From assembly GCF_002770725.1 (NCBI RefSeq), contig NZ_NQVN01000005.1, positions 62,001 through 126,000 on the forward strand: DNA of 64,000 nt. The letters run 5' to 3'. Below the pieces are notes generated by a model. The model was not told the DNA's origin. It saw only the letters and a program-made list of their open reading frames with translations, and made no database searches. Positions 22,389 to 41,857 of this stretch are shown piece after piece. This DNA is from Pleomorphomonas carboxyditropha. Its GTDB lineage: Bacteria; Pseudomonadota; Alphaproteobacteria; Rhizobiales; Pleomorphomonadaceae. Within the stretch, counting starts at the first letter, position 1, and every line of letters begins with the position of its first letter. Made by a program: the position numbers and the translations under genes.

Positions 22389-22512
22389 GGCATGCTTAAA
22401 AATACCTCGGACGGCGGGTGACGACCTGTCTAGAGATGTATATGGTACTGCGGCGCCTCCGGACGGCAGGGGATCGGAAGCGCGGCGAATTCGAGAGTCA
22501 GAGAGTAAGGGG

Positions 22513-23625: not shown

Positions 23626-23721
23626 GCCGACCGGCGCGTAAGCATCGGACCGCAAAATGGAAGCCGGTCTTCGGGCGATCCGATGCGGGAAAAAAAGAAA
23701 CAGAGCCAGAGGAGAACGACA

Positions 23722-24834: not shown

Positions 24835-24856
24835 TCGCCCTTCCTGTTTCATCAGG

Positions 24857-24880
24857 GTCCGCCGCTCCGAAGCGGCGGAC
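24857..24880. repeat. Stem-loop after the binding-protein gene
   Basis: Perfect 10-bp inverted repeat, GTCCGCCGCT (24857-24866) and AGCGGCGGAC (24871-24880), with a four-base loop, 20 bases after the stop. A GC hairpin here, with only CGCCTTTCG behind it, is the usual arrangement that protects binding-protein mRNA and lowers expression of downstream permeases. Confidence 0.7.
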
Positions 24881-24907
24881 CGCCTTTCGAGAAAACTAGC
24901 CTGAACA

Positions 24908-26646: not shown

Positions 26647-26680
26647 GTGCGCGCCAAGCGCCCTTCCGAGGATCGCAACC

Positions 26681-28003
26681 ATGACCGACGTTTCCTTCCA
26701 CGACTATGCCAAGCTCGACGCGGCGGGCCGCGCGGCCCTGCTCAAGCGCTCGGAAACCGACCTCACCTTCTTCCTCGACAAGGTCGGGCCGATCATCGAG
26801 GCGGTGAAGACGGAAGGCGACGCGGCGCTCCATCGCTTTGCCCGCGACCTCGACAAGTCGGAGGTCAAGCCCGGCGCGCTGAAGGCGAGCGAGGCCGAGT
26901 TCGATGCCGCCTTCAAGGCCGTCGAGCCGGAGGTGGTGGAGGCGATCCGCTACGGCATCGACAATATCCGCCGCTTCCACGAAGAGCAGAAGCCGGAGGC
27001 GATGTGGCTGAAGGAGATCCGCCCCGGCGCCTTCGCCGGCGACCGGGTGACGCCGATCAAGTCGGTGGCGCTCTACATTCCGCGCGGCAAGGGCGCCTTC
27101 CCGTCGGTGACCATGATGACGGCGGTGCCGGCGGTGGTGGCCGGCGTGCCGAAGCTGGCCATCGTCACGCCGCCGACGCCCGATGGTTCGGTCGACGCGG
27201 CGACGCTGGTCGCCGCCCGTCTCGCCGGCGTCGAGACGGTCTACAAGGTCGGCGGCGCGCAGGCTGTGGCCGCCGTCGCCTTCGGCACCGAGACGGTGAA
27301 GCCGGCGTTGAAGATCGTCGGCCCCGGCAGCCCGTGGGTGGTGGCGGCCAAGCGCCTTCTCTCCGGCGTCATCGACGCCGGCTTGCCGGCCGGGCCATCG
27401 GAAGCGATCATTTTCGCCGACGATACGGTGCATGGCGGTCTCGCCGCCCTCGACGTGCTGATCGAGGCCGAGCATGGCCCGGATTCGTCGGCCTATATCG
27501 TCACCCATTCGCGCCGCGTCGCCGAGGAGGCGCTGGCCGCGCTGCCCGAGCATTGGGCGCGCATGACGCCGCAGCGCGTCGAGTTCTCGAAGAAGGTGCT
27601 GGGCGGCGCCTTCGGCGGCATCATCCTGACCTCGTCGGTCGAGGAGAGCCATGCCTTCGTCAACGCCTATGCGCCGGAGCATCTGGAGATCCTCTCCACC
27701 GACCCCTACGCCCATCTCGGCAAGATCACCGAGGCGGCGGAGATCCTGATGGGTCCCTATACGCCGGTCTCCATCGCCAATTTCGGCCTCGGCCCCAACG
27801 CCGTGCTGCCGACCAGCCGCTGGGCGCGCACCTGGGGACCGCTGTCGGTGTTCGACTTCGTCAAGCGGTCGTCGGTCGGCTATGTCACGGCGTCCGCCTA
27901 TCCGGAGCTGGCGCATACCGCCCGGGTGCTCGCCCGCTACGAGGGCTTCTCGTCGCACGAGCATGCGGTGTCGGCGGTGCGCGACGCCTATCTCAAGGGC
28001 TGA
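26681..28003 (+). CDS. HisD-family dehydrogenase with altered metal site
   Basis: 440 residues, clearly of the histidinol dehydrogenase family: Rossmann segments around [23 protein letters not shown] and [19 protein letters not shown], and the general acid/base pair Glu333-His334 (APEHLEI). Compared with E. coli HisD as I remember it, zinc ligands Gln259 and Asp360 become Glu262 and Asn367 and the substrate-binding His367 becomes Ala374 (PNAVLPT instead of TNHVLPT). His265 and His426 (His262 and His419) remain. It sits in an ABC transporter operon with an alcohol dehydrogenase and a kinase, not in a his operon. I therefore think it oxidises another amino- or hydroxy-alcohol, not histidinol; HpsN-type HisD paralogues are a precedent for this kind of shift. 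Confidence 0.85.
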
Positions 28004-28006
28004 GCG

Positions 28007-29023
28007 ATGAAGGCCGTCCGCCTCTATGCCGCCGGCGACCTCAGGGTCGAGGATATCGCGCCGCCACCGGCCCCACGGGCCGGCGAAGTGCGGCTGACCG
28101 TGACGGCGGCCGGCATCTGCGGCTCCGACCTTCACAACTTCCGCACCGGCGCCTGGATCAGCCGGTCGCCGTCGGTGGCCGGGCATGAGTTCGCCGGCAG
28201 GGTGGCGGCACTCGGCGAAGGCGTCGATGGCTTGGCGTTGGGCGATGCGGTGGTGGCCGATTCGCGCGTCACCTGCGGCGTCTGCGCCGCTTGCCGCGAT
28301 GGCCGTCCGAACGTCTGCGAAAAGCTCGGCTTCGTCGGCGAGGTCTGCGACGGCGGCTTTGCCGAGGAAGCGGTGCTGCCGGCCTCGCTGCTCATCAAGG
28401 CGCCCGACGATGCCGATGCGGCGGCGCTGGCCATGGCCGAGCCGTTGGCCGTGGCGCTGCATGCGGTCAGGCGCCTTGCCGCTCCGGCAGGATCGCCGGT
28501 GCTGATCGCCGGCTGCGGACCGATCGGCGGCCTCGCGGCGCTGCTGCTGTCCGAACGGCATGATGGGCCTTTGTTCGTTGCCGACCGCAACGCCGCTCGG
28601 GCCGGACGCGTCGCCGAGGTGACGGGTGCCCGGATCACCGAGCTCACGGCGGAAGCCGTTGCCGGGGTGCTTGGCGGCGCGCCGCTGCTGGCCGCGCTGG
28701 ACGCCACCGGTCATCCCGGCGTGATCGGCACGCTGGTCGATCTCGTTGCGCCGGGCGGTATCTTGGCGCTGGTCGGCATTGGCCACGGCAGCCTGGCCGT
28801 CGATCCGGTGCGGCTGGTCGAGCGGGAGATCACGCTCGCCGGCTGCCACGCCTTTACCGACGAGTTGCCGCAGGCGGTGGCGCTGATGCCGGCGCTTCAG
28901 CATCGTCTGCTGGCGCTGGTCGACGAGACCATCGATCTCGACGGCGTGCCGGCCGCTTACGAGCGCCTTCTGGCCGGCCGGTCGGTTGGCCTCAAGACGA
29001 TCATCCAGCCGAGGCGAGCATGA
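28007..29023 (+). CDS. Zinc-dependent medium-chain alcohol dehydrogenase
   Basis: 338-residue MDR-family enzyme of the threonine/sorbitol/idonate dehydrogenase type. Catalytic zinc ligands are Cys38 (GICGSD) and His60-Glu61 (GHEFAG); the structural zinc has Cys90, Cys93, Cys96 and Cys104. The coenzyme site is [17 protein letters not shown]. It starts three bases after the HisD-like gene and overlaps the kinase gene by four bases. Probably oxidises an intermediate of the same pathway as the SDR and the HisD paralogue. L-idonate 5-dehydrogenase-like enzymes are the nearest family I recognise, but the substrate is unknown. Confidence 0.9.
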
Positions 29024-30321
29024 CCTCACCGAGCCGCACCGCCGAGATCCGGCGTCTCGCCGCGACGGACGAGGGCGCGGCCGTCGCCGCGCTGGCGGCG
29101 CTGTTCGCCGACCTGTTCGGCCTCTCGGCCGAGGGCGTCGCCATCAACCGCGACCAGTACAGCCTCAACTCGCTGAACGGCTTCTTCTCGGCCGGCGGCG
29201 CCGACTATTTCTTCAAGTTCCATCAGGAGGACGGTGAGGAGGCGATGACCGGCGAATATTATCGCGCCGACATCCTCGCCCGGGCCGGCCTGCCGGTGGA
29301 CATGCCGGTGTTCGTTTCCAACCTGCCGGGCGAGCAGGTGCTGGTCTACCGCCGTCGCTCCGATCCCCGCTTTTCCGATGTGCTGCGGGCGCTCGATATC
29401 GCCGGCCTCGAAGGCCGGCGCGACCTCGCCGGCGAGGCGGATGCGGTCGCCGCCGAACGCGGTCTCGATGCGGCGATCGCGCGCGTCTATCTCGACAGCC
29501 TGCATCCGGTCACCGTGAGCGAGGCGGCGGCCGAGCCGATCCACCGCCTGTTCCACGACCGCCTGGTCGACATGCCCGGCCGGCGCTTTTCCGGCGGCCG
29601 GCTTGCCGGCTTCTATCTCGGCAAGACGGTGCGCCTGCCGGGCGCCGAACTCGACTGGGACGATTTCGCGGCTCGGCGCATCGTGGTCAACGGCCGGGCC
29701 TACCGCCGGACGATCGGCGAGTTGTTCGCGGCGGCCGGCGCGCGGCTGCGGCCGGATCTGCTCGCCGATGCCGGCGGCGTGGTGGCGCATGGCGACGCCC
29801 ACAACGCCAATGTCTGGTACGGTCGGGGGGCGGACGAACCGGCGCTCAGCTTCTACGATCCGGCCTTTGCCGGCGCGCATGTGCCGGCGCTGATCGCCGA
29901 GGTGAAGGCCACCTTCCACAACGTGTTCGCCCACCCGCTCTGGCTCTACGATCCGGCCGAGGCGACGCGGCGGTTTTCGGCCTCGGCGCGGCCCGGCGAC
30001 GGCATCCTCGCCATCGATACCGACTGGGCGCCGACGCCGGTGCGGCGGGCGCTTCTCGCCGCCAAGGCGGAGCTGGTGTGGAAGCCGCTGCTTTCCACGC
30101 TCAAGGCGCGCGGCCTGCTGCCGGCCGACTGGCGGCAGGTGATTCGCCTGGCGCTGTTCCTCTGCCCGACGCTGGTGATGAATCTGAGGGCCGGCGCGGC
30201 GACGCATACCGAGACGTCCTCGGCCATCGCCTTTGCGGTCTCCGTCATGGCTGGCAGCGAGCCGGACATGGGCGAAGACGACATCACCGCCTTTCTCGAC
30301 GCCATCGATCCGGATCGGTAG
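29020..30321 (+). CDS. APH-fold small-molecule kinase
   Basis: 433-residue aminoglycoside phosphotransferase/choline kinase-fold protein. The catalytic loop is HGDAHNAN at 257-264 and the metal-binding Asp is Asp280 in SFYDPAF; a possible ATP-binding lysine is Lys66 in YFFKFH. The long N-terminal lobe and C-terminal helical tail (VIRLALFLCPTLVMNLR) make it larger than typical APH proteins. As the last gene of the operon, it may phosphorylate the imported compound or its oxidation product. An antibiotic-resistance role is unlikely given the operon. No closer family recognised. Confidence 0.8.
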   Translation: MTSPSRTAEIRRLAATDEGAAVAALAALFADLFGLSAEGVAINRDQYSLNSLNGFFSAGGADYFFKFHQEDGEEAMTGEYYRADILARAGLPVDMPVFVSNLPGEQVLVYRRRSDPRFSDVLRALDIAGLEGRRDLAGEADAVAAERGLDAAIARVYLDSLHPVTVSEAAAEPIHRLFHDRLVDMPGRRFSGGRLAGFYLGKTVRLPGAELDWDDFAARRIVVNGRAYRRTIGELFAAAGARLRPDLLADAGGVVAHGDAHNANVWYGRGADEPALSFYDPAFAGAHVPALIAEVKATFHNVFAHPLWLYDPAEATRRFSASARPGDGILAIDTDWAPTPVRRALLAAKAELVWKPLLSTLKARGLLPADWRQVIRLALFLCPTLVMNLRAGAATHTETSSAIAFAVSVMAGSEPDMGEDDITAFLDAIDPDR

Positions 30322-30417: not shown

Positions 30418-30615
30418 TCAGGCGGCAGCCGGCATGCACGAGCCCGACGGGCAGACTTCGGCGCACTGCTGCGTGTCGAAGTGGCCTTCGCACTCGGTGC
30501 ACTTCTTGGCGTTAATCGAATAGACCTTGCCCTTGTGGCTGATCGCCTTGTTGGGGCATTCGTCTTCGCAAGCGCCGCAGGAGGTGCAGGTGTCGGTGTC
30601 GATCATATAGGCCAT
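30418..30615 (-). CDS. 2[4Fe-4S] ferredoxin
   Basis: 65-residue low-potential electron carrier. Cluster I cysteines are C10, C13, C16 and C20 ([12 protein letters not shown]); cluster II cysteines are C39, C42, C51 and C55, with an eight-residue spacer between the second and third, as in FdxN/Allochromatium-type ferredoxins. An extra Cys60 is near the end. ATG 30615 follows AGGAG. It lies 160 bases downstream of the hydrogenase large-subunit gene on the same strand, so it is the likely electron donor or acceptor of that complex. It is much smaller than CooF of R. rubrum. The gap before it has an imperfect hairpin at 30746-30771, just after the hydrogenase operon. Confidence 0.93.
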
Positions 30616-30777
30616 GGGTGTCACTCCTCTTGGTTGTCCAACGGGGCCGCGGCTGTCCGTTTTATGTGCGGCTCCGATCCCAGGTCGCCGGAGCAAGTGG
30701 TTCGCGCCCTTGCTCTGGCTCCAGTTTTCGCGCATTTGCGCCGTCCGAAAAGTCTGCAACTTTCCGGATGACCGTCC

Positions 30778-31878
30778 TCAGCGTTCCGTGCAGGAAAGGC
30801 AGGGGTCGATGCTGTTGACGATCATGGCGATGTCCGCGACCTTGGCGTCCTGCAGCATGAAGCGCAGGCTGTCCCAGTTCATGAAGGTCGGCACGCGCCA
30901 CTTGACGCGCTCGGGCTGCGGGGTGTCGTTGGTGCGGAGGTAGTAGATCACCTCGCCGCGCGGCGCCTCGCTGCGGGTCACCGCCTGTCCGGGCGGGATG
31001 TCCGGGCGGTCGTTGATGTTGACCGGGCCGCCGGGCAGATCGCGCAGGCAGACGCGCAGCAGGTCGATCGAGGTCAGGATCTCCTCGAGACGGACCATGG
31101 CGCGCGACCAGACGTCGCCGTCGGTCAGCGAGTGCACCACCAGCGGCAGCCGGTCGTAGGCGGCATACGGCGCTTCGCGGCGCACGTCATAGTCGACGCC
31201 GGAGGCGCGGGCCACCGGGCCGACGACGCCGCAGGTGATGGCCTCGGCATGGGTGAGCACGCCCACGCCCTTGGTGCGGCGCAGGATGGAGCCGTTGGTC
31301 TTGAAGGTCTTGATGATGTCCTTGGTCTCGGCCTCGATCTTGTCGAGGGCGCCCTTGATGTAGGCGATCGACTTGTCGTCGAGGTCGTAACGGACGCCGC
31401 CGATGCACATGGCGCCGATGTCCTGACGGTTGCCGAAGATCGACTCCAGCATGTCCTGGCCGATCTCGCGCACCTGCATCATGTGCATGAAGTAGGTCTC
31501 GTAGCCGACGAGGTGCACCAGGAGCGCCACGTTGAACAGGTGCGAGGTGACGCGCTTCATTTCGTCGGCGACGGTGCGCAGATAAATGCCGCGCTCGGGC
31601 ACCTCGATGCCGGCGATCTTCTCGGCCGCCATGGCGAAGGTCTGCGGATGGCTGTTGGAGCACAGCGAGCAGATACGCTCGGTCAGCACCACGTTCTGGT
31701 ACATCGTCCGCTTGGTGGTCAGGTACTCGATGCCGCGGTGGGCGTGACCGGCGTTGATGTCGATGTGGCTGACGGTCTCGCCCTGCACGTCGATCTTGAA
31801 GTACATCGGCTCCTCGAGGGCCACATGCAGCGGGCCGACGGGAATGCTGAAGGTCTCGGGTACGTTGTGCGTGCTCAT
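30778..31878 (-). CDS. cooH: Group 4 energy-converting [NiFe] hydrogenase, large subunit (CooH-like)
   Basis: Catalytic subunit carrying the NiFe centre. 366 residues; the nickel ligands are Cys70 and Cys73 (RICSLCSNSHPQ) and Cys360 and Cys363 (DPCLSC). The protein ends only three residues later (TER), so there is no C-terminal extension to be cleaved by a maturation protease. Start ATG 31878 overlaps the cooU-like stop by four bases. Homologous to NuoD and HycE, but small like CooH. It ends the operon cooMKLXUH. In the R. rubrum system this subunit reduces protons with electrons from CO oxidation; no CODH gene is in this window. Confidence 0.92.
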   Translation of the reverse strand: MSTHNVPETFSIPVGPLHVALEEPMYFKIDVQGETVSHIDINAGHAHRGIEYLTTKRTMYQNVVLTERICSLCSNSHPQTFAMAAEKIAGIEVPERGIYLRTVADEMKRVTSHLFNVALLVHLVGYETYFMHMMQVREIGQDMLESIFGNRQDIGAMCIGGVRYDLDDKSIAYIKGALDKIEAETKDIIKTFKTNGSILRRTKGVGVLTHAEAITCGVVGPVARASGVDYDVRREAPYAAYDRLPLVVHSLTDGDVWSRAMVRLEEILTSIDLLRVCLRDLPGGPVNINDRPDIPPGQAVTRSEAPRGEVIYYLRTNDTPQPERVKWRVPTFMNWDSLRFMLQDAKVADIAMIVNSIDPCLSCTER

Positions 31879-32501
31879 GCTGCACCCTTCTTTCCGGCGA
31901 GGAGGCGTTCCCACAGGCCCTTGGTGCTGGCGGCGTTGACCAGCGTCGAGAACGGAATCAGCCGCTCGAGAACGGCGCCGTCGACCGAGGCGTCGAGGAA
32001 CAGGCGGCGCGGATCGGGATGGTCGGTCACCTTGACGGCGTAGAGCTCCATCATCTCGCGCTCGTGCCAGTCGGCATTGCGGAACAGCGGCGTCAGCGAG
32101 GCGATGCTGCCGCCCTGCGGCACGTAGGCGATGACGGTCAGGGCGTCGCCGGCGATGTCGAAGTGATAGTCGATCTCGTAGGAGGTGCCGTCGAGCGGCG
32201 TGCCACCGAACGACTTCGGCGTCTCCTTGGGCTCGGTCTCGGCCTTCTCCTCGCCGTCCTCATCATCCTCGTCCTCGTCTTCCTCCTCCTCTTCGGGAGC
32301 GGAGGGCTGGGCGCAGGTGATCATCGAGAGGCGCGCGCCCATCTCCTTGAGAAGGGTGGCGACCGGCGACAGATCGGCGGCGCTGGCTAGGCCCAGCCAG
32401 GCGACGGTGACGCCGTACTGGTCGGTTTCGGCCGAGAACTCAACGCCGGCCGGGGCCGCGGCGGTGAGGCGGGCTTCCAGGTCTTGCGGTAGGCGGCTCA
32501 T
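31875..32501 (-). CDS. cooU: Hydrogenase subunit CooU-like (NuoC family)
   Basis: 208-residue small-arm subunit homologous to NuoC and the N-terminal part of HycE. The C-terminal half has the NuoC signature ASLTPLFRNADWHEREMMELYAVKVTDHPDPRRLFLD. Residues about 70-92 are an almost wholly acidic insertion (runs of Glu and Asp), which is unusual for the family and probably an exposed flexible loop. Start ATG 32501 overlaps the cooX-like stop by four bases, and the end overlaps cooH by four. Needed to dock the large subunit on the membrane arm. Confidence 0.88.
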   Translation of the reverse strand: MSRLPQDLEARLTAAAPAGVEFSAETDQYGVTVAWLGLASAADLSPVATLLKEMGARLSMITCAQPSAPEEEEEDEDEDDEDGEEKAETEPKETPKSFGGTPLDGTSYEIDYHFDIAGDALTVIAYVPQGGSIASLTPLFRNADWHEREMMELYAVKVTDHPDPRRLFLDASVDGAVLERLIPFSTLVNAASTKGLWERLLAGKKGAA

Positions 32502-33001
32502 GCTGGGACCTTCCGGTTCTTGAGATACTTGGCGCGGCACTTGGGGCAGCGCGCGCGCAGCTCAGTATATTCCTCGGCGCTGAGCGGCGGCTTGGCATTC
32601 TTGATCACCGGCGCCGTATTCAGCGCGGTGGCGCCACACTCGACGCACTTCTGGTTGGGAATCAGGCCGTGCTCCACCATGTCGAATTTGTCGGCGTTGA
32701 CGTGGGAGAGGTCCCAGTCGTTGGTCTGATGGATGGCGTCCGTCGGGCAATAGAATTCGCAATTGCCGCAGAACACGCAGGTGTTGTGCCAGCAGTCGAA
32801 GGTCATGCCGTCGGGCGTTTTGGCGAAGCGGATGGCATTGGCCGGGCAGACGCGCTCGCAGATGCGGCAGCCCTCGCAATGGTCGGCGTTGAACTCGATG
32901 CGGCCGCGCAGACGCTCGGGCGTGAAGGCCGGTCCCAGAGGGAAGGCCTCGGTCTGAGGGCCCTGCTTCAGGTTGCGGGCGAAAATCGTCAGGAAGTTCA
33001 T
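32498..33001 (-). CDS. cooX: Hydrogenase iron-sulfur subunit CooX-like (NuoI family)
   Basis: 167-residue electron-transfer subunit with two [4Fe-4S] motifs: C42, C45, C48, C52 (CEGCRICERVCP) and C75, C78, C81, C85 (CVFCGNCEFYCP). It also has a C-terminal tetracysteine, C119-x-x-C122 and C152-x-x-C155, that looks like a zinc ribbon. It passes electrons from soluble ferredoxin to the small subunit. Between the cooL-like and cooU-like genes, overlapping the latter by four bases. Confidence 0.92.
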   Translation of the reverse strand: MNFLTIFARNLKQGPQTEAFPLGPAFTPERLRGRIEFNADHCEGCRICERVCPANAIRFAKTPDGMTFDCWHNTCVFCGNCEFYCPTDAIHQTNDWDLSHVNADKFDMVEHGLIPNQKCVECGATALNTAPVIKNAKPPLSAEEYTELRARCPKCRAKYLKNRKVPA

Positions 33002-33015
33002 CTTGGGACCTTTCC

Positions 33016-33453
33016 TCAGAGACGCTCGCGCCAGATTTCGATGGCCTTGGCGACGCCGGCGATGATCGCCTGCGGCCGGGGCGGACAGCCGGGCACGTTG
33101 ACGTCGATCGGAATGTACTGGTCGATCGGCGCCAGCACGGCGTAGCTCTCGCGGAAGATGCCGCCGGAGATCGGACAGACGCCGACCGCCACCGTCACCT
33201 TCGGGTCGGGGATCTCCTCGTACATGCGCAGCACGGCATCCTTGACGCGGACGGTGAGCGGACCGGAGATCAGCACGATGTCGGCGTGCTTGGGGCTGCC
33301 GCAGTACTGGCAGCCGAGACGCTCGATGTCATAGCGGGGAATCAGCGCGGTGGTTGCCATCTCCACGTCGCAGCCGTTGCAGGAGCCGGCGTTGATCCGG
33401 TAGATCCAGGGCGAGCGCGTGGCGATCTTCTTGAAATCGGGTATCAGGCCCAT
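33016..33453 (-). CDS. cooL: Hydrogenase small subunit CooL-like (NuoB family)
   Basis: 145-residue subunit holding the [4Fe-4S] cluster proximal to the NiFe site. The ligands are Cys25 and Cys28 (GSCNGCDVE), Cys93 (GVCPISGG) and Cys123 (PGCPPRPQ), the NuoB/HycG arrangement. A further CxxC pair, C48 and C51, is present. Short spacers of 10-15 bases separate it from its neighbours, so it is in the same transcript as cooM through cooH. Confidence 0.94.
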   Translation of the reverse strand: MGLIPDFKKIATRSPWIYRINAGSCNGCDVEMATTALIPRYDIERLGCQYCGSPKHADIVLISGPLTVRVKDAVLRMYEEIPDPKVTVAVGVCPISGGIFRESYAVLAPIDQYIPIDVNVPGCPPRPQAIIAGVAKAIEIWRERL

Positions 33454-33463
33454 CTAGCCCTCC

Positions 33464-34423
33464 TCAGACCACGACGACGACCGCAAGGCTCGCCACGGCG
33501 AGCAGCAGGGGCCACTTCAGGAAAAACACGAAGGCCTGGTCGATGCGCATGCGGCCCATGGACAGGCGGACCGCGGTGATGCCGACCAGCATCAGCACCG
33601 CCATCTTGATCAGCCACACCAGGAAGCCGCCGACGATGCCGGCCGGCGCCGCCGGGAAGAACAGGGCGATGCCCAGGCTGAGCACCACCACCTTCTTCAG
33701 CGCCGACATGATCTTGAACAGCGCCAGCACCGGGCCCGAGTATTCGAGCAGCGGGCCTTCCAGCACTTCGGTCTCGGCCTCCGGAATGTCGAAGGGCACG
33801 ATGCCGAGGTTGGCCGGATAGAAGAAGCAGAAGGCGGCGACCGCCGGCCACATCACCGGGTCGAACAGGAAGGAGCCGTGGGCCTGCTGGTAGGCGATGA
33901 TGTCGTTCAGCGAGAAGGTGGCCCAGCCGCCGAGCCCCAAGCCGGTGCGGATGGCGACGGCGGCGGCGATCAGCACCAGCGGGCCCTCGTAGGCGATCAT
34001 CAGGGCCATCTCGCGCGAGAAGCCGATGGCGCCGTAGGGCGAGCCGGAGGCCGAGCCGGCGATCATCAGCACGATGCCGGGGATCATCAGCAGGTAGAGC
34101 AGCACCAGGAGGTTGCCGATGGCGGCATCCGGCGCATAGACCGAGGTGATCGGCACCAGGGCGGCGGCGATCAGCATCGAGACGACGCCGACCAGCGGCG
34201 TGTAGAGGAACACCGTCTCGTTGGCGGCGGCCGGCACCATGGTGCGCTTGAAGCCGAGCTTGACGATGTCGAAGAACGGCTGCAGCAACGGCGGGCCGAC
34301 GCGGCTCTGCAGGCGGGCGGCGACGCGGCGGTCGACACCCTTCATGGCAAGGCCGAACACGAGGGCGAACACTCCACCTGGGAAGAGGAGCACCGCCAGC
34401 AAGATAGCGATCTGGTTGGACAT
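33464..34423 (-). CDS. cooK: Hydrogenase membrane subunit CooK-like (NuoH family)
   Basis: 319-residue integral membrane subunit with about eight helices, homologous to NuoH, HycD and EchB; it joins the hydrogenase module to the ion-pumping subunit. Family signatures are RRVAARLQSRVGPPLLQPFFDIVKLGFKR on the first cytoplasmic loop and FPANLGIVPFDIPEAETEV-like sequence (YPANLGIVPFDIPEAETEVLEG) with the conserved acidic residues, then YSGPVLALFKI. Start ATG 34423 follows GGGAGGAGAG; a longer frame upstream is rejected. Confidence 0.93.
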   Translation of the reverse strand: MSNQIAILLAVLLFPGGVFALVFGLAMKGVDRRVAARLQSRVGPPLLQPFFDIVKLGFKRTMVPAAANETVFLYTPLVGVVSMLIAAALVPITSVYAPDAAIGNLLVLLYLLMIPGIVLMIAGSASGSPYGAIGFSREMALMIAYEGPLVLIAAAVAIRTGLGLGGWATFSLNDIIAYQQAHGSFLFDPVMWPAVAAFCFFYPANLGIVPFDIPEAETEVLEGPLLEYSGPVLALFKIMSALKKVVVLSLGIALFFPAAPAGIVGGFLVWLIKMAVLMLVGITAVRLSMGRMRIDQAFVFFLKWPLLLAVASLAVVVVV

Positions 34424-34439
34424 TTTCTCTCCTCCCCCG

Positions 34440-37400
34440 TCAGTGCTGCTCGTTGGCCTTGGCGGGCTTGCCCGCCAGGAGGCCGCGGATGGCAGCGGTC
34501 GGGGACTCGAACAGGTTGGCGGTGCCGACACGGCCGCCGGCTTCCGGACGGAAGTCGTCGGGTGTGGCGCCGGCGAAGTGCAGGCCGCTCTTCTGGACGC
34601 CGCGGTGGGCGAGACGCATCCAGGGGATGAATACCGCCGCGACGATCAACACCAGGAGGCTGAGGGCGAGCGGGCTCCAGCCACCGGCGCCCGGCAGCGG
34701 GCCGAAGATCGAGGCGTCGATCGGGGTGAGGCCGAGTTCGGTCTGCATCTTGGCGATCGGCACCAGGGCGAGGCCCGGGAAGAAGCCGAGCAGCACGCTC
34801 GCTCCCACCAGCACGCCCATCGGCAGCAGCATGGACAGCGGCGCTTCCTCGGCCGCGAGGGCCTTCTGCGTCGGCGCGCCCATGAAGGCGGCGTGGGCGA
34901 ACTTCAGCACGGCGGCCAGCGTGAACAGCGACGACAGCATGGCGCCGGCGCCGAGCGCCCAATGGCCGCTCTCGAAGGCCGCGGAGAAGATCATCCACTT
35001 CGAGGAGAAGCCGTTGAGCGGCGGCACGCCGGCCAGCGACAGGCCGGCGAACAGGAAGAAGCCGAAGGTGATCGGCATCTTGCGGCCGAGGCCACCCAGT
35101 TCGTCGAGCTGGCTGGCATGGCTCTTGACCATGACGGCGCCGGCCACCAGGAACAGCGTGTCCTTCAGGAACATGTGATTGACGAAGTGGAACAGGCCGC
35201 CGGCGACGCCGAGCGAGGTGCCGAGGCAGAGCGCCATCAGCACGTAGCCGAGCTGGCTGACGGTGGAGTAGATCAGCAGGAGCTTGATGCCGTTCTGAAC
35301 CACCGCCATGGCGCCGGCGTAGACGACGGTGATGCCGGCGATGACGGCGATGATGTCGATCAGCGCCGGAACGCCGCCGATCTCGCCGCCGAGGCGCAGG
35401 AACACCGCGCTGCCGCCGAACAGGCTGAACAGCTTCAAGACGCCCCACGGACCCGACTTCAGCAGCACCGCCGAGATGTAGCCGGAGACCGGCGTCGGCG
35501 CGAGGGCCGGGTGCATCTGCACGTCGATGCGGACGGGCAGCATGGCGGCCTTCATGACGAGGCCGATGAACACCGGGATGATGCCGATGGCCAGCGTGGC
35601 GAGCGGCATGTCGAGCGCCTTCTGGCCGATCTCGACGAGATCGAAGGTGCCGGCATGGGCGGCGAGCGCCGCGACGCCCAGGAACATGAAGGAGGCGCCG
35701 ATGGTGTTGAAGAAGAAGTACTTGAAGCCTTCCCTCCGCGCCTCGTCGTTCTCCTCGTGGATGATGGCGGCCCACAGCGCCCAGCTCGACATCAGCTCCC
35801 AGAAGCCGAAGAAGGTGAAGATGTCTTTCGCCGCCGTCATGCCCAAGAGGCCGGCGATCATGATGCCGAAGGCGGCGAAGAAACGCGGCTGGGCGTGGTT
35901 GTGGGCGAGATAGGCGGTGGCGTGCAGCATGTTGAGCGCGCCGACGCCGGCGATCAGCACCGCGAACCAGAAGGACAGCGTGTCGTAGGCCGGCGCGGTG
36001 AAGATCACCGCCAGGAAGGCGGCGACCAGCACCGCCACGGCGAGCCAGCCGGCCTGCTCGACCGACTTGCGGCCGACGAGCCAGACCGCCACGGCGCCGA
36101 GGAAGGCGATGGTGGCGGGCAGCGTCCAGCTCATGACCAGCGACGGCAGCGCCGCTGCGGCAAGACCGCCGCGGGCAGCCACCTCGGCGCCGACGGCACC
36201 GACGAGGTCGAGCTGGAAGGACGGTACGAAACCGCCGAAGATGATGGCGGCGGCGAGGACGCCGACGGCGATCAGCATGGGAAGCGGCGCTTCCTTGACG
36301 CCGGCCTCGCCCTTCCACGGACGGAAGAACAGCATGCCGACGACGCGGAGATAGTAGACGACGGCGATGATGCCGCCGACCAGCAGGCCGATGGCCACTT
36401 CATAGTGGCCGGCCTCGGCCGCCGCGTAGACCATCAGGAACTTCGAGACGAAGCCCGAGAAGGGCGGCAGGCCCATGATCGACACGGTGGCGAGCGCGTA
36501 GCAGCCGGCGGTGAACGGCATGACGCGGCCGACGCCGGCGAGGTCGGCGATGTTGCGCCGGCCGGTCTGCATGATGAAGGCGCCGGCGGCGAAGAACAGC
36601 AGCGTCTTCATCACCGCGTGGTTGGTGACGTGCAAGAGGCTGGCGTCGGTGGCGAGCGCCGTGCCGATGCCGAGCACCGCGACGATCTCGCCGACCTGGG
36701 CGAGCGTCGAGAAGGCCAGCATCCGCTTGATCTCGGTCTCGAACAGGGCGCGGATCTCGCCGTAGAGCAGCGTGATCAGGCCGAGGCCGATCAGCACCAC
36801 CTCGAGGCTGAGGCCCCAGCCGGTGAAGGTGGAGAGCGCCGGCACGCCGATGACGATGAACAGCACCTTGACGAGGCCGAACACGCCGGCCTTGGTCAGG
36901 ATGCCGGACAGCGGACCGGAGATCGACGACGGCGCCGCCGGATGGGCGATCGGCAGCCAGCTATGCACCGGCCAGACGCCCGCCTTCACCGCGAAGCCGG
37001 CGAAGAAGCACAGCGCGATGACGAGGCCGGCGACCGGCGAGATGGTGCCGACCTTGTCGGCCAGCGCCGCGAACTCGAACGAGCCGATCTCGGCGTGCGT
37101 CAGCAGGATGCCGAAGTGCATCAGGTAGGCGCCGGAGGCGCACATCATGAAATAGATGAGGCCGGCGCGCAGCGACTTCTGGTTCTGCTCGTGGATGACC
37201 AGGAAGTAGGAGGTCCAGGTCATCAGTTCCCAGTAGACGTAGAAGTTGCCCATCTCGTGCGCGGTGGTGAGGCCGAGCAGCGAGCCGATCATCAGGAAGG
37301 CGAAGAAATAGTAGCGGTTGGTCCACTCGGCGCGGGCCATGTAGCCGACCGAGTAGACGATCATCACGGCGGTGATGCCGGCGAATACCAGCGCGAAGAC

Positions 37401-38234
37401 GCGCGAGGCCGGATCGAGGCTCGTATCGAACACCACCAGGGCCAGCGTCGCGACGGCGAGGATCACGGCGCCGATGTCGCGGGCGCGGGTCGAGACGTGG
37501 CCGAGGCCGTAGATCGCGAAACCGCCGATATAGGGAACGAGGACAAGCAGCGCCCAAGGCGACTCGAATTCGGGCACGCCGCTGGCGGCGCCGGCCAGCG
37601 CTTCCGCCGCGTGCTGGAAGGGCAGCGGGAACACCGAGATCAGCGCGGTGACGGCGGCGAGCGCCCAGGCGATCGGCAGGGCGAGAGCCGGCGCGTCTTT
37701 GAGCTCGACGCGGCGCGCCGGATGCTCGAGGCAGACGCGCTGGATCACCACCAGGTAATAGTAGGCGGCGACGATCGAGGCGGCGGTGCCGACGAGCGCG
37801 ATGGCCCAGTGGCCCTGCTCGATGGCGGCGTAGAGCACCAGGAACTTGGAGAAGGATCCCTTGAACGGCGACAGGCCCATCACCGAGAACATGCCGAAGC
37901 CGAACAGCGTCGCGGCGACCGGCATGCGGTGGCCGGAGCCGGCGAGGTCGTCGAGGCGCGACGAGCCGGTGCGGCGGATGATGTACCAGCCGGCGGCGAC
38001 GACGAGGCCGCGCATGATGATCTGATAGCCGAAATGCATGTAGGCGCCGGTCAGGCCGGCTTCACCGCCGAGGCCGATACCGATCAGGATGTAGCCGATC
38101 TCGGCGATGGTCGACCAGACGACCACGCGCACCAGGCTCGGCAGACTCATGAGGGCGGCGACTTCGCCGAAGAACAGGAAGATCGCGCCCATCCAGGCCA
38201 GCGCCATCGGGTCGATCTGAGTGAGGGAGAGCAT
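34440..38234 (-). CDS. cooM: Fused antiporter-like hydrogenase subunit CooM-like
   Basis: 1264-residue polytopic membrane protein related to NuoL, NuoM and MrpA, close in length to the CooM I recall from R. rubrum (about 1270). It contains two complete antiporter modules: residues about 290-640 (Glu336, Lys417, Lys448, Lys543) and about 770-1115 (Glu813, Lys895, Lys926, Lys1024). At the N-terminus, residues about 30-165, it has a third, half module with the same block (SKFLVLYAAIEQGH matches SKFLMVYAAAEAGH and SKWMIFSAAFESGH), in which the lysine is replaced by Arg75. The key charged residues suggest proton or sodium translocation. I prefer ATG 38234, preceded by GGAAGGA, over ATG 38258. First gene of the hydrogenase operon. 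Confidence 0.92.
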   Translation of the reverse strand: MLSLTQIDPMALAWMGAIFLFFGEVAALMSLPSLVRVVVWSTIAEIGYILIGIGLGGEAGLTGAYMHFGYQIIMRGLVVAAGWYIIRRTGSSRLDDLAGSGHRMPVAATLFGFGMFSVMGLSPFKGSFSKFLVLYAAIEQGHWAIALVGTAASIVAAYYYLVVIQRVCLEHPARRVELKDAPALALPIAWALAAVTALISVFPLPFQHAAEALAGAASGVPEFESPWALLVLVPYIGGFAIYGLGHVSTRARDIGAVILAVATLALVVFDTSLDPASRVFALVFAGITAVMIVYSVGYMARAEWTNRYYFFAFLMIGSLLGLTTAHEMGNFYVYWELMTWTSYFLVIHEQNQKSLRAGLIYFMMCASGAYLMHFGILLTHAEIGSFEFAALADKVGTISPVAGLVIALCFFAGFAVKAGVWPVHSWLPIAHPAAPSSISGPLSGILTKAGVFGLVKVLFIVIGVPALSTFTGWGLSLEVVLIGLGLITLLYGEIRALFETEIKRMLAFSTLAQVGEIVAVLGIGTALATDASLLHVTNHAVMKTLLFFAAGAFIMQTGRRNIADLAGVGRVMPFTAGCYALATVSIMGLPPFSGFVSKFLMVYAAAEAGHYEVAIGLLVGGIIAVVYYLRVVGMLFFRPWKGEAGVKEAPLPMLIAVGVLAAAIIFGGFVPSFQLDLVGAVGAEVAARGGLAAAALPSLVMSWTLPATIAFLGAVAVWLVGRKSVEQAGWLAVAVLVAAFLAVIFTAPAYDTLSFWFAVLIAGVGALNMLHATAYLAHNHAQPRFFAAFGIMIAGLLGMTAAKDIFTFFGFWELMSSWALWAAIIHEENDEARREGFKYFFFNTIGASFMFLGVAALAAHAGTFDLVEIGQKALDMPLATLAIGIIPVFIGLVMKAAMLPVRIDVQMHPALAPTPVSGYISAVLLKSGPWGVLKLFSLFGGSAVFLRLGGEIGGVPALIDIIAVIAGITVVYAGAMAVVQNGIKLLLIYSTVSQLGYVLMALCLGTSLGVAGGLFHFVNHMFLKDTLFLVAGAVMVKSHASQLDELGGLGRKMPITFGFFLFAGLSLAGVPPLNGFSSKWMIFSAAFESGHWALGAGAMLSSLFTLAAVLKFAHAAFMGAPTQKALAAEEAPLSMLLPMGVLVGASVLLGFFPGLALVPIAKMQTELGLTPIDASIFGPLPGAGGWSPLALSLLVLIVAAVFIPWMRLAHRGVQKSGLHFAGATPDDFRPEAGGRVGTANLFESPTAAIRGLLAGKPAKANEQH

Positions 38235-38677
38235 GAGAGGAGATCCTTCCGCAGACATGCATCTTGGCTGTCATGGATGACGTTAATCGGAGCATCCACT
38301 AGGGTATGTCGGCTAGCCGACATATACGCATTCGCACGACGACGATGCTTTGGTATTGGAAGTAAAAATGATTTTTACATTCATGTTATTATGAGGCTAT
38401 AAAGTCATGAAAAATCAGTCGTATACGCCTGAACGGTGTCCATGCGGAGCCTCGGCGGGGGAACTTTCTAAAGGATTTAGCCGTCCGTTTCGGCCGATTT
38501 TCTAAGTAGTATGTCCGATACAGCTTTGTGCATCCCGGCCATGCAGAATCCAAGGGATTCCCGCTAGTTGCGAGCGATTTGCAGAAAGCGGCGCAAAAAC
38601 CGCCCTTTCGTGGCCAAGTATTTCCTCTACGCCCGCGAATGGGATAGAGAACAAACGGCACCCGAAAGGAATAGGCG
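38235..38677. other. Divergent intergenic region between cooM-like and hypA
   Basis: 443 bases without a gene. Besides the 20-bp palindrome at 38305, there is an exact inverted repeat GTAAAAA-TGA-TTTTTAC at about 38360-38376 in an AT-rich stretch (38345-38410). The rest, about 38410-38670, is unremarkable; no clear sigma-70, sigma-54 or FNR site was found for hypA. Confidence 0.5.
38305..38324. promoter_or_regulatory. CooA-type operator upstream of the hydrogenase operon
   Basis: A perfect 20-bp palindrome, TATGTCGGCTAGCCGACATA. Its core TGTCG-N6-CGACA (38307-38322) fits the TGTCA/G-N6-CGACA consensus I recall for R. rubrum CooA. It lies 71-90 bases upstream of the cooM-like ATG, consistent with an activator at about -40 and a leader of some 30 bases. 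The regulator gene at 39917 is CooA-like and is probably its ligand. Confidence 0.7.
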
Positions 38678-39025
38678 ATGCACGAAACGGCGGTGGTCGA
38701 GGGGCTGATGCGCATCCTAACCGAGCATGCCCGGCAGAACGGCGTCGACCGGGTCGTCGCCGTGCGTCTGAAGATCGGCAAGCTGCGCGGCATCGACAGC
38801 CGGCAGATCCGCCTGGCCTTCGAGATATTCGCCGAAGGCACGCTGGCCGAGGGTGCGCGGCTCGATATCGACGAGGTCGGCGTGACCGCGAAATGCCGGA
38901 CCTGCGGCACCGTATTCGAGGTGGAGAAATACCGCTTCGTCTGCTCGGGCTGCGGCGGCTCGGATGCCGACGTGCTGACAGGACGCGAACTCTACATCGA
39001 GAGCTTCGAAGCGGCGAAGACCTGA
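38678..39025 (+). CDS. hypA: Hydrogenase nickel-incorporation protein HypA
   Basis: 115-residue nickel metallochaperone that delivers Ni to the hydrogenase large subunit with HypB. The N-terminal Met-His-Glu supplies the nickel site (His2). The zinc site is Cys73, Cys76, Cys89 and Cys92 in two CxxC pairs. Divergent from the hydrogenase operon and convergent with hypB. hypC, D, E and F are not in the window and must be elsewhere. Confidence 0.95.
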   Translation: MHETAVVEGLMRILTEHARQNGVDRVVAVRLKIGKLRGIDSRQIRLAFEIFAEGTLAEGARLDIDEVGVTAKCRTCGTVFEVEKYRFVCSGCGGSDADVLTGRELYIESFEAAKT

Positions 39026-39177: not shown

Positions 39178-39891
39178 TCAGGAGCGGCCCAGCGCCTGCC
39201 GCCGCTCGGCGAGGCGGTCGACGATCCATTGCGTCCAGGCATCGAGGCCGGCGCCCTTCTTGGCCGACACTTCGATGACCGGGCCGGGGCCATGGACGCG
39301 GCCGACGGCGGCGCGGGCGCGCTCGGTCGAGAATTCCTCGATGGCCGGCAGCAGGTCGGTCTTGGTGATCAGCACCAGCTCGGCCTTGCGGAAGATCACC
39401 GGATACTTGTCGGGCTTGTCGTCGCCCTCGGTCACCGACAGCAGCACCACGTCGTGATGCTGGCCGACGTCGAAGTCGGCGGGGCAGACGAGGTTGCCGA
39501 CATTCTCGACGAACAGCACGTCGATGTCGTCGAGGTCGAGCACGTGCAGCGCGTCCTGGATCATCACCGCGTCGAGATGACAGGTGACGCCGGTGGTGAT
39601 CTGCACCGCCGGCACGCCGTGGCGGCGGATGCGGTCGGCGTCGTTCTCGGTCTCGAGATCGCCCTCGACGACGGCGACGCGGATGCCCTTGGGCAGCGCG
39701 GCGATGGTCGCCTCGAGAAGCTGCGTCTTGCCCGAGCCGGGCGACGACATCAGGTTGATCGACAGCACGCCGTGGGCGTCGAGATGCTCGCGGACGTGGG
39801 CGGCGATCCGGTCGTTCTCCGACAGGAGGTTCTCGACGACGGGAATGGTGGTGGTGGCGGTCTTGTCGCCGCAGCCGCAGGCGCTGCACAT
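39178..39891 (-). CDS. hypB: Hydrogenase nickel-incorporation GTPase HypB
   Basis: 237-residue SIMIBI-class GTPase for nickel insertion. The N-terminal CSACGCG gives the high-affinity nickel motif (Cys2, Cys5, Cys7), the P-loop is SSPGSGKT at 49-56, and the metal-binding GTPase-domain residues are in TGVTCHLDA and VENVGNLVCPADFD; ITKTDLL is the guanine-specificity motif. There is no histidine-rich stretch, so no nickel-storage function. It starts 25 bases after the regulator gene ends, so the two are probably one transcript. Confidence 0.95.
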   Translation of the reverse strand: MCSACGCGDKTATTTIPVVENLLSENDRIAAHVREHLDAHGVLSINLMSSPGSGKTQLLEATIAALPKGIRVAVVEGDLETENDADRIRRHGVPAVQITTGVTCHLDAVMIQDALHVLDLDDIDVLFVENVGNLVCPADFDVGQHHDVVLLSVTEGDDKPDKYPVIFRKAELVLITKTDLLPAIEEFSTERARAAVGRVHGPGPVIEVSAKKGAGLDAWTQWIVDRLAERRQALGRS

Positions 39892-39916: not shown

Positions 39917-40573
39917 TCAGCGGACGTCGGCGAGCTCGCGGCGCAGGCGGCCGAGATCGGAGATCACCATCGAGCCGCCGCCGAAGCGGTAGAGGATGCC
40001 CGAGCGCACCAGCTCGGCGATGACGGTGGAGACCGACTGCCGCGTGGCGCCGATCTGCATGGCGAAATCCTCGGCGTTGGGCAGGTGGTCGATGACGATG
40101 CCTTCCTCGGCCGGACGGCCGATCCGGTCGGCGGTGTCGCAGAGCACGCGGATGAGGCGATGCTTGACGCCGTGGAAGGCGATGTCCTCGATCATGCGGA
40201 TCGACTTCTGCGCCAGGCGGTCGAGGGCCGGCAGCACGGCGAGCGCCAGTTCCGGCTCGGCGAGCACCAGCTGGCGCAGGACGGCGGGCGAGGCGAGCAC
40301 GACGTCGGCGGCGGTGCGCACCTCCAGCATGGCGCCGCCGTGCAGGTAGATGGCGTCGCCGGCCTCGAGCAAATAGAGCGTCAGCTCCTTGCCCTCGAAG
40401 GAGGTGAAGCAGCGCAGCCGGCCGGACCGGACGATCAAGAGGTCGCCGTCGGCAGTTTCGTCGCCGCCATAGACGATCTGGCCGGCGCGCATCGAACGCT
40501 GGCTGAACAGGCGGCCGTGGCCATCCTTCAGGAGACGTTCGATGATGGCGCTCAGCGGATTGTCGGTGTGCAT
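39917..40573 (-). CDS. CooA-like CRP/FNR-family regulator
   Basis: 218 residues: an N-terminal cyclic-nucleotide-binding-type sensor domain, a dimerisation helix and a C-terminal winged HTH. The helix and hinge IEDIAFHGVKHRLIRVL and the recognition helix ATRQSVSTVIAELVRSG closely resemble CooA (IEDLMFHDIKQRIAGFF, SSRQTTSTALNSLIKEG as I recall), more than CRP or FNR. In the heme pocket, CooA His77 is conserved as His78 (AIYLHGG), but the CooA Cys75 position is Tyr76. There are no FNR-type cysteine clusters. It lies between nnrS and hypB and is the likely activator at the 38305 palindrome. Whether it binds heme is an open question. Confidence 0.85.
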   Translation of the reverse strand: MHTDNPLSAIIERLLKDGHGRLFSQRSMRAGQIVYGGDETADGDLLIVRSGRLRCFTSFEGKELTLYLLEAGDAIYLHGGAMLEVRTAADVVLASPAVLRQLVLAEPELALAVLPALDRLAQKSIRMIEDIAFHGVKHRLIRVLCDTADRIGRPAEEGIVIDHLPNAEDFAMQIGATRQSVSTVIAELVRSGILYRFGGGSMVISDLGRLRRELADVR

Positions 40574-40777
40574 CGGCTTTCCAGGGGTACCGGCTTGAAG
40601 TGTTCGCTTCGGGTCAGTTTATCATATGGGAAATTACGTGTTCGTTGTTAATGAGAATAGGCCAAAGCGGGTCAACTTTTCAAGTTTGGCTATATCCTTC
40701 AAGACGTTGGTTTTTTATGGTCTGGGTTGCCATATTTGCATGGTAAGTGTCGCAAGGTCTTCGCACTTCCGGCCGAC
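40574..40777. other. Gap between nnrS and the CooA-like regulator
   Basis: 204 AT-richer bases that should carry the regulator promoter (minus strand). It contains a perfect inverted repeat AACTT-TTC-AAGTT (40674-40686) and an imperfect one, GTGTCGCAAGGTCTTCGCAC (about 40747-40766). Neither is a convincing match to a known operator. Confidence 0.35.
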
Positions 40778-41857
40778 TTATACTTTGGTCGCGATTGGCG
40801 GCCGGACGGCCCCGCGCAGGGTGAACAGGATGTAGCCCAGGAAGGCGATGGCCCAGCTCCAGCGGGCCAGCGGAATCAGCCTGTCGTAGAACTCGAAATC
40901 CAGGGCGGCGCCGACCCGGGCGACGGCGGCGCCGGCGATCGCCACGTAGATGACGTCGGCGAGCAGCGACGGCATCAGCGATCGCTTGTCCTTCTTGCGG
41001 ACGATGGAGGTGGCGATGCCGATGGCCAGCGTCGCGAGGCCGCCGACCGCGAAGGCGTGGATGACGGCGAAGGGCGAGATGCCGGCGACGCCGAGATCCA
41101 TCAGCGCCAGCAGGAGAAAGGCGACACGTTTCCACAGGAGGCCGACCGCCAGGATGACGCAGCCGGCATAGGGCCTGATGCGCCAGGGCTGGATATGGAC
41201 GAGCCAGGCCATGCCGAACAGGAAGGCGGCGAGCGCCGGCCAGCCGGCGTTCCAGCCGAGCCCCCAGAGGGCGAGCGCCAGAACGGTGAAGGCGCGCTGC
41301 GGCAGGGCGATGAGGGCCGGGACGGGCGTCAGCTTCGGATAGCCGGCGCGCTCGCGGGCCACCGCCAGCACGGCGACGCCGATGCGGTTCGACACCTCGA
41401 TGCAGATCAGCACGATGACGGCGAGGCCGGCCATGGTGGCGCCGGACCAGCCGTGCAGGAAGGCGGCGATGCCGATCAGCGCATGCAGCGCGGCGAGGCC
41501 GAGAATCGGCAGCGTCTCCGCCGTCTTGCCGGACGGGGTGGTGGAGAGCAGCAGCGCGACGCCGGACAGCGTCGCCAGGGCGCGCAGCACACCGCCCATC
41601 TCGAGGCCGACGCAGCCCCAGAGAAAGGCGGCGGCGTGGGCGGCGAGCACCGCCCAGAGCACCGGCGCCGGGGTGATCGGCTTGCCGATCCAGCGCGGCA
41701 GCGCCACGGTCAGGAAGCCGAACAACTGGATGCCGAAGAAGCCGAAGATCAGCTCGTTCGGATGGGTGGCGATGTCGCCGATCCCCGGGCCGATCGCCCG
41801 GAGCGCCGTCAGCGCCGCCAGCACGAAGGCGACGCGGAACGGGTCGGGCCTCGTCAT
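40778..41857 (-). CDS. nnrS: NnrS family membrane protein
   Basis: 359-residue polytopic protein with about eleven or twelve predicted helices. NnrS proteins contain heme and copper and relieve stress from nitric oxide and its iron complexes; they usually accompany denitrification or anaerobic genes. Visible family blocks are HPNELIFGFFGIQLFGFLTVALPRW, ILGLAALHALIGIAAFLHGW, RAFTVLALALWGLGW and AVIHAFAVGGLATLAIGIATSIV, with scattered conserved histidines as candidate ligands. The start codon overlaps the ubiV stop by four bases (ATGA), so it is the last gene of the ubiTUV operon. Confidence 0.88.
   Translation of the reverse strand: MTRPDPFRVAFVLAALTALRAIGPGIGDIATHPNELIFGFFGIQLFGFLTVALPRWIGKPITPAPVLWAVLAAHAAAFLWGCVGLEMGGVLRALATLSGVALLLSTTPSGKTAETLPILGLAALHALIGIAAFLHGWSGATMAGLAVIVLICIEVSNRIGVAVLAVARERAGYPKLTPVPALIALPQRAFTVLALALWGLGWNAGWPALAAFLFGMAWLVHIQPWRIRPYAGCVILAVGLLWKRVAFLLLALMDLGVAGISPFAVIHAFAVGGLATLAIGIATSIVRKKDKRSLMPSLLADVIYVAIAGAAVARVGAALDFEFYDRLIPLARWSWAIAFLGYILFTLRGAVRPPIATKV

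Follow-up and report, generated by a model that had tools for sequence, protein, structure and literature searches.

The window analyzed here, a 64,000-nucleotide stretch of contig NZ_NQVN01000005.1 of Pleomorphomonas carboxyditropha, carries on its minus strand a six-gene operon, cooM-K-L-X-U-H, encoding a [NiFe] hydrogenase of the carbon monoxide (CO)-linked type, followed by a gene for a small 2[4Fe-4S] ferredoxin and adjoined by none of the genes cooF, cooS, cooC, cooT, and cooJ. The comparisons described below point, with a probability of about 0.58, to an ion-pumping, ferredoxin-dependent, H2-evolving hydrogenase that would operate independently of CO dehydrogenase (CODH), descend from CO-linked enzymes, and be re-wired to the oxidation of aldehydes. 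A preliminary description of the locus had proposed a hydrogenase without a CODH, re-purposed for ion pumping and H2 evolution from reduced ferredoxin. The lack of a CODH holds for the locus and not for the genome, which carries a CooS gene on another contig (C22). The re-purposing is favored by comparison—that is, with window-type CooH present in 12 and CooS above its cut-off in none of the 13 other genomes of the genus, and with the CODH-less loci forming one clade—although the cooS gene of the window genome itself counts against it.

Gene content and catalytic residues

Profile hidden Markov model (HMM) searches confirmed the six genes, their coordinates, and the Rhodospirillum rubrum order M-K-L-X-U-H that had been claimed for them. 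The tightly spaced minus-strand genes encode a fused membrane subunit of 1264 residues with two antiporter-like ion-pump modules (cooM, 34440–38234), a NuoH-like membrane subunit of 319 residues (cooK, 33464–34423), a NuoB-like small hydrogenase subunit of 145 residues (cooL, 33016–33453), a NuoI/HycF-like Fe-S subunit of 167 residues with two clusters (cooX, 32498–33001), a NuoC-like subunit of 208 residues with an acidic stretch in mid-protein (cooU, 31875–32501), and the [NiFe] large subunit of 366 residues (cooH, 30778–31878). CooM was matched by models of antiporter-like subunits twice over, and CooH by those of NuoD and hydrogenase large subunits. Both Ni-binding CxxC pairs are present in CooH, in the motifs RICSLC and DPCLSCTER, the latter ending the protein without a C-terminal tail; the nearest solved relatives by sequence are the large subunit of formate hydrogenlyase (7z0s) and a subunit of the membrane-bound hydrogenase (6cfw).

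The gene after cooH (30418–30615, minus strand), in the position of cooF, encodes a 65-residue ferredoxin with two clusters, assigned to the Allochromatium/YfhL type by HMM and by sequence matches to solved structures, with 3eun, 2zvs (YfhL), 1blu, and 1rgv among the best; its score with the YfhL NCBIfam model, 74.2, lies under the cut-off of 86. Ferredoxins of the Allochromatium type have very low potentials.

Distribution and phylogeny of the CODH-independent hydrogenase

In a search of 120 relatives (14 genomes of the genus and 106 others) for CooH and CooS, window-type CooH was found in 13 of the 14 genus genomes, being absent from G010 alone, which is 89% complete; four relatives outside the genus gave distant CooH matches of at most 44% identity. 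CooS scored above the family cut-off in the window genome alone among the 120, and hence in none of the 12 other genus genomes having window-type CooH. Matches in the remaining 13 genomes of the genus were weak, and a genome of the same order (G048) narrowly missed the cut-off of 478 with a score of 473.7. The ferredoxin gene follows cooH in all 12 other genus loci read, and a regulator gene lies upstream in nine of the 10 genus loci extending there, the exception being G006; the genes downstream are conserved in some.

A scan of one genome per species across 84,980 species yielded 151 relatives, the best 80 of which were analyzed further, with marker genes mapped on these 80, on the window, and on three stretches of the window genome (G000) and G045. 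The resulting CooH tree has 84 rows, or 82 once two distant rows of G045 are removed. As had been anticipated, the window protein falls within the CooH sequences in both trees, other group 4 hydrogenases being sampled sparsely, by the two rows of G045 in the larger tree. Forty CooH rows, including that of the window, form one clade (support 100/98) with members from Pleomorphomonas, Oryzibacter, Siculibacillus, Rhodoplanes, Consotaella (two copies), Cohaesibacter, Breoghania, Propionivibrio, and others, all alpha- or betaproteobacteria where the class can be told. Both Ni motifs are present in all 40 rows. CooS was found in the stretch examined in none of the 40 clade loci, and the ferredoxin in 34, in 32 of them directly after cooH; in the other two (L084 and L091) it is encoded on the opposite strand, adjoining a tungsten-type gene of the kind described below. 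Since the clade is nested among CODH-linked CooH rows, the link to CODH was most likely lost in its ancestry, as judged from these sequences.

CooS was then counted genome-wide in 50 genomes: 28 of the clade outside the genus, two of the Telmatospirillum group without CooS, 15 others whose CooH has no adjoining CooS, and five positive controls. It was detected in all five controls and in a single clade genome (G131), and a CooS-family match was found in 10 of the 15 non-clade genomes. Like the window genome, G131 has a second CooH locus with cooF and cooS (L123), and these two CODH-linked CooH rows pair in the tree (support 100/99). In total, CooS is present in two of the 41 clade genomes searched, both of which carry a second, CODH-linked CooH.

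Aldehyde oxidoreductases as genetic partners

Recurrent neighbors of the operon were sought by clustering the open frames of 34 stretches and naming the representatives by HMM search, which identified HypA and HypB in the window. Two loci (L085 and L080) supplied a molybdopterin-dependent aldehyde oxidoreductase (Mop; NF045668, 1557.8 bits, above cut-off) together with a flavin/Fe-S dicluster protein (NF045663), a DVU_1556-type methyltransferase, a DVU_1555 protein, and a DVU_1551 NTP transferase, all above their cut-offs, as well as an XdhC-type maturation factor (282.8 bits, below the cut-off of 350). Of the 39 clade loci other than the window, 16 have Mop in the stretch examined; its start lies 0.5 to 3.3 kb behind cooH, on the same strand, in 15 of them and 8.7 kb behind in L095. 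Five loci (L084, L087, L088, L091, and L093) instead have a gene resembling tungsten-type aldehyde:ferredoxin oxidoreductase 0.6 to 5.8 kb behind cooH on either strand, with Pfam domains AFOR_N and AFOR_C in L093; in four of the five, putative tungstate ABC transporter genes, so read from sequence, are also present. Counting both kinds, 21 of the 39 loci have an aldehyde oxidoreductase following the operon or close to it.

The molybdenum enzyme was also traced genome-wide. Mop was found at E ≤ 1e-200 in all 14 genomes of the genus (12 above cut-off and two cut by contig ends), including the window genome (L161; NF045668, 1538.7 bits, cut-off 1100), vs. none of the 106 other relatives; in G007 (L069), the Mop set follows the ferredoxin gene, with a regulator gene between. 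Outside the genus, 23 of the 28 clade genomes carry Mop, G140 only as two pieces; those without it are the genomes of L086, L087, L088, L093, and L099, and in L087, L088, and L093 the tungsten-type gene lies near coo. Among CooS-bearing proteobacteria without clade CooH (alpha, gamma, and class unstated), Mop was found in none of 16, or in one of 18 when two CooS-bearing genomes of the Telmatospirillum group are included. Because such genome counts are non-independent, weight is placed here on the shared operons, the shared promoter boxes, and the swap of aldehyde enzymes. No link between CooMKLXUH and aldehyde oxidoreductases was found in the parts of the open-licence PubMed Central (PMC) papers searched.

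Two further observations concern members and neighbors of the clade. In Consotaella salsifontis, the CODH-free hydrogenase genes are present twice, on separate contigs (L074 and L075); in L074, a Mop set stands behind the hydrogenase genes and no match to cooM or cooK was found in the 10 kb upstream, even at E 10, so that this copy is perhaps a hydrogenase without an ion pump of its own. Just outside the clade lies the Telmatospirillum group (L098, L101, L103, and L110), whose coo genes are accompanied by no ferredoxin or CODH in the stretch examined; two of its four genomes have CooS and three have Mop, and the group possibly represents an intermediate stage.

Promoter boxes and the CooA-like regulator

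A CooA-type box, TGTCGGCTAGCCGACA, lies at 38307–38322, 88 bp before the cooM start codon, and is a perfect match to the CooA consensus TGTCGGCNNGCCGACA; its 16 letters are also those of the CooA site predicted for cooSC of Desulfovibrio vulgaris (PMC545781). A predicted −10 element, TAACGT (38280–38285, minus strand), stands at −12 to −7 when the box is centered at −41.5, a spacing from which we infer a CRP-type class II promoter. TAAC is found at this position in all 11 aligned genus loci, and the box is exact in nine of the 11 having the region, with TGTC-N8-GACA kept in the other two and variable flanks. Within 250 bp of cooM, TGTC-N8-GACA was found in eight of eight loci within the genus and in 12 of 26 clade loci outside it, where its frequency elsewhere in these loci would predict 0.01; it was not found within this distance in the remaining 14. 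Fisher values computed alongside take no account of kinship and are given no weight here.

Related sites precede the aldehyde genes. In the genus, two box-like sites 33 bp apart stand before xdhC of the Mop operon in seven of eight loci read (the exception being L162, from G006), each with one mismatch to TGTC/GACA, bar one exact site in L168. A similar arrangement, with two TGT-N10-ACA sites 32–33 bp apart, occurs before cooM in L075, L080, L082, L085, and L094. In G145, the box of the Mop locus (L170), TGTCGGCCGGCCGACA, is identical over 16 letters to the cooM box (L097).

The regulator encoded upstream of the window operon (39917–40573, minus strand) belongs to the CRP/FNR family, is related to CooA, with 35% identity to the CooA-like protein of contig C22, and retains the RQ recognition helix and the axial His column. 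The regulators of the CODH-less loci, 14 rows including the window's, form one group (approximate likelihood ratio test, SH-aLRT, 100) in which the RQ helix is kept. The heme ligands of R. rubrum CooA are His77 together with Cys75 and Pro2. The axial His column is kept in all 22 CODH-linked rows vs. 11 of the 14 CODH-less ones (kept in the window, lost in three), and a further regulator sequence, from G012, has Asn in this column. None of the 14 has Cys at the Cys75 column, yet 14 of the 22 CODH-linked regulators lack it too (eight have it), so that its absence is uninformative on CO sensing. The pattern of the His column hints that in part of the regulator group, though not demonstrably in the window copy, the sensor has been released from CO.

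Control of cooM by NifA was considered and rejected, given that no −24/−12 element was found and that the box lies close to the start codon. Contig C31 of the window genome (22.7 kb; L010 and L011) has three exact TGTCGG-N4-CCGACA palindromes and nifD (C31:16430–17863). A TGT-N10-ACA site beside nifD there would presumably be a NifA site. NifA-type and CooA-type boxes look alike in the genus, and cross-talk between them is conceivable.

A CO dehydrogenase elsewhere in the same genome

The window genome (5.88 Mb in 80 contigs) encodes on contig C22 a CooS of 639 residues (TIGR01702, 811 bits), accompanied by its own cooM-K-L-X-U-H and by CooF-like, CooC-like, and CooA-like genes, of which cooC and cooA are named on the assumption that sequence likeness identifies them. 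The CooH proteins of the two operons share 60% identity. The C22 CooM is an open frame of 1280 residues, with an uncertain start, and is 53% identical to the window CooM; the fused 1264-residue CooM emphasized earlier is therefore real but not distinctive. An acidic stretch of about 20 Glu/Asp residues in the window CooU is absent from the C22 CooU. A cooS gene under the same palindrome, together with CO-dependent H2 production, had been named beforehand as evidence against re-purposing; the genome-wide search found the gene, while the TGTC-N8-GACA site that precedes the C22 cooF is a weaker palindrome than the window box. A contaminant origin of the C22 operon was also weighed and is not favored, the estimated contamination of the assembly being 3.54% and C22 being 582 kb long. 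On C44 lies another prismane-family match, which the CODH model scores at only 24.5 bits and which we regard as HCP. Contig C16 (L059 and L060) encodes another large subunit of a [NiFe] hydrogenase, for which the best model, PRK10170, gives 929.9 bits, below its cut-off of 1101, and a second frame like the complex I 49-kDa subunit, which we take to resemble HycE/HyfG. P. carboxyditropha SVCO-16 has been listed among genomes combining CODH with an energy-converting hydrogenase (PMC6687684).

Proposed mechanism and alternative explanations

In the favored reading, the reduced 2[4Fe-4S] ferredoxin, standing in for CooF, would pass electrons to CooX and from there through CooL to the NiFe site of CooH, where protons would be reduced to H2. 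CooM and CooK would pump ions during H2 evolution, as has been proposed for the CO-linked enzyme (PMC4257681; PMC4652020). The electrons would come mainly from aldehydes by way of the Mop-type molybdenum enzyme, replaced as electron input in some betaproteobacteria by a tungsten-type aldehyde:ferredoxin oxidoreductase, and a descendant of CooA that has kept its DNA sites would switch on both the coo and the Mop operons. A wider proposal is more tentative and falls short of even odds: that aldehyde oxidoreductase, dedicated ferredoxin, and CO-type hydrogenase constitute a single-regulon module for aldehyde-driven proton respiration, governed by a CooA descendant that responds to a signal other than CO, with the cassette spread among alpha- and betaproteobacteria (many with nitrogenase) and able to take either a molybdenum or a tungsten enzyme as its input.

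A number of observations weigh against the reading favored here. For 19 clade rows out of 40, namely the window and 18 other loci, the stretch examined (short in several cases) contained neither aldehyde enzyme, and in Pleomorphomonas Mop lies mostly elsewhere, with G007 the sole case adjoining coo. Mop is also present in nine of 38 CooH-bearing genomes searched outside the clade (36 plus two of Telmatospirillum, the genome of L119 being left out; one of the nine below cut-off), including three of the Telmatospirillum group, one of which has CooS, and some CooS-bearing Desulfovibrio. G000 and G131, the two clade genomes in which CooS was found, carry Mop as well. A kin-corrected test of Mop against CODH linkage on the CooH tree was not significant (median p 1), with too few independent events. 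The Fe-S centers of the D. gigas Mop, with potentials near −0.28 V, lie high relative to a ferredoxin of the Allochromatium type. Moreover, the D. gigas enzyme has been described with flavodoxin as its partner (PMC10223205), and given both points an intermediate electron step may be needed; the flavin/Fe-S protein of the Mop operon may carry or split electrons. Other hydrogenases exist in Pleomorphomonas (PMC4967309; PMC13286885), and H2 release therefore has other possible routes. Because the window genome has a full CODH system and CooA, and because the cooM box is a perfect CooA consensus, CO could both induce and feed the window hydrogenase, whose regulator may, judging by its axial His column, sense CO.

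The strong co-occurrence with nitrogenase bears on the direction of the reaction. NifD scored above cut-off in 12 of the 13 genus genomes with window-type CooH and was found in pieces in the 13th; outside the genus, matches above cut-off came from 18 of the 28 clade genomes vs. 15 of the 106 relatives. This pattern, which weighs against the favored direction, would suit a hydrogenase running in reverse, oxidizing H2, much of it from nitrogenase, with an ion gradient driving the reduction of ferredoxin, which would serve nitrogenase or the reduction of acids by aldehyde oxidoreductases; the ferredoxin is of a type that we take to be low in potential, and tungsten aldehyde oxidoreductase has been reported to reduce acids with H2 (PMC9295118). 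However, no nif genes were recognized among the recurrent neighbors (no search dedicated to nif was made in the flanks of the operon, and G006 has nifD on the contig of its operon, some 80 kb distant), and no −24/−12 site was found before the window cooM. The isolate Breoghania corrubedonensis (G130) has the operon and no nifD match, and diazotrophy is confounded with anaerobic life. Reversal is thus unlikely, and for nitrogenase as a source of electrons, as raised in the preliminary description, nothing beyond the co-occurrence with nifD was found.

Somewhat less probable still is that the window operon encodes a second CO-induced hydrogenase served in its host species by the C22 CooS. The CooS, CooF-like, and CooA-like genes of the genome and the perfect consensus box would fit, as would the conversion of CO to H2 and CO2 by a Pleomorphomonas-like isolate (PMC5603099); yet the C22 CooS has a linked hydrogenase of its own, and 12 other genus genomes retain the operon and ferredoxin without CooS above cut-off, with the box present in all 10 that include the upstream region. 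A pyruvate-linked fermentation, in which pyruvate:ferredoxin oxidoreductase (TIGR02176) reduces the ferredoxin, is very improbable, since this enzyme, although present in nine of the 28 clade genomes outside the genus, was not found in any of the 13 Pleomorphomonas genomes searched, which also tells against the earlier suggestion of pyruvate as the electron source.

Neighboring genes

Contrary to the earlier view that the neighbors are unrelated, hydrogenase maturation genes adjoin the operon upstream, although no CODH genes of the coo type do. Divergent from cooM lies hypA, for a nickel chaperone (38678–39025, plus strand; TIGR00100, 100.8 bits, cut-off 88.1), and beyond it, on the same strand as the operon, hypB, for the nickel-insertion GTPase (39178–39891, minus strand; TIGR00073, 270.8 bits, cut-off 121.2), followed by the CooA-like regulator gene.

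The segment from 39917 to 44150 continues past the regulator with an NnrS-family gene and U32-family genes, one of them ubiU, of anaerobic ubiquinone synthesis. NnrS and U32 matches recur in all 10 genus loci that extend far enough, which suggests a wider anaerobic regulon. On the other side, a set of plus-strand genes at 21414–30321 runs toward the operon and is conserved in part within the genus. It comprises genes for a short-chain dehydrogenase, an ABC transporter, and proteins like histidinol dehydrogenase and alcohol dehydrogenase, and its substrate could be an alcohol or a source of aldehyde.

Significance

Where a genome encodes a CO-type hydrogenase, it is tempting to infer that the organism oxidizes CO. 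Because a whole clade lacks an adjoining CODH and mostly lacks a genomic one, CO metabolism could be misassigned from CooH or CooM alone. That Coo hydrogenases may have a distant CODH, and that a Pleomorphomonas-like isolate makes H2 from CO, was already known; the link to aldehydes was not found in the parts of the open-licence PMC papers searched. A CO-type hydrogenase that has no CODH beside it, and that travels with a small ferredoxin and often with aldehyde enzymes, suggests an enzyme re-fuelled with aldehydes. If the proposed electron route is true, it would provide an energy-conserving way from aldehydes to H2 and would mean that an enzyme can change its fuel jointly with the gas-sensing regulator that controls it. 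The clade has cultured members, so that the reading is testable in culturable strains without CooS.

Comparison with known systems

The closest known systems, as published, are the CO-induced hydrogenases of R. rubrum and Rubrivivax gelatinosus, which have the same six-subunit order and Ni ligands (PMC4257681; PMC545781), and a CooA-type box like that at the window cooM has been reported for the R. rubrum coo operons (PMC545781). In contrast to these, the window operon adjoins neither CODH nor CooF, has the 65-residue ferredoxin instead, and belongs to a separate, CODH-less clade. The CooMKLXUHF hydrogenase of D. vulgaris resembles the CODH-less loci in that its CODH is encoded in a separate operon, and differs in retaining CooF and a genomic CooS (PMC545781); deletion of its cooK marks a genotype supporting H2-based syntrophy on lactate (PMC5042321). 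Coupling of the hydrogenase to a distant CODH has also been described in Carboxydothermus pertinax (PMC6687684). The Desulfovibrio CooH rows sampled here lie outside the window clade.

For the electron input, the nearest parallel is the Mop of D. gigas, which we take to be the same kind of enzyme as that of the window genome (family NF045668). A chain rebuilt in vitro from D. gigas proteins couples aldehyde oxidation to H2 formation, as proposed here (PMC10223205). It differs in employing flavodoxin, cytochrome c3, and a soluble NiFe hydrogenase, and thus has no ion-pumping step. With respect to regulation, the window protein resembles CooA in its type of recognition helix and in the DNA box found at the promoter, and is 35% identical to the C22 CooA-like protein, whereas across its group the axial His column, kept in all 22 CODH-linked rows, has been lost in three of the 14.

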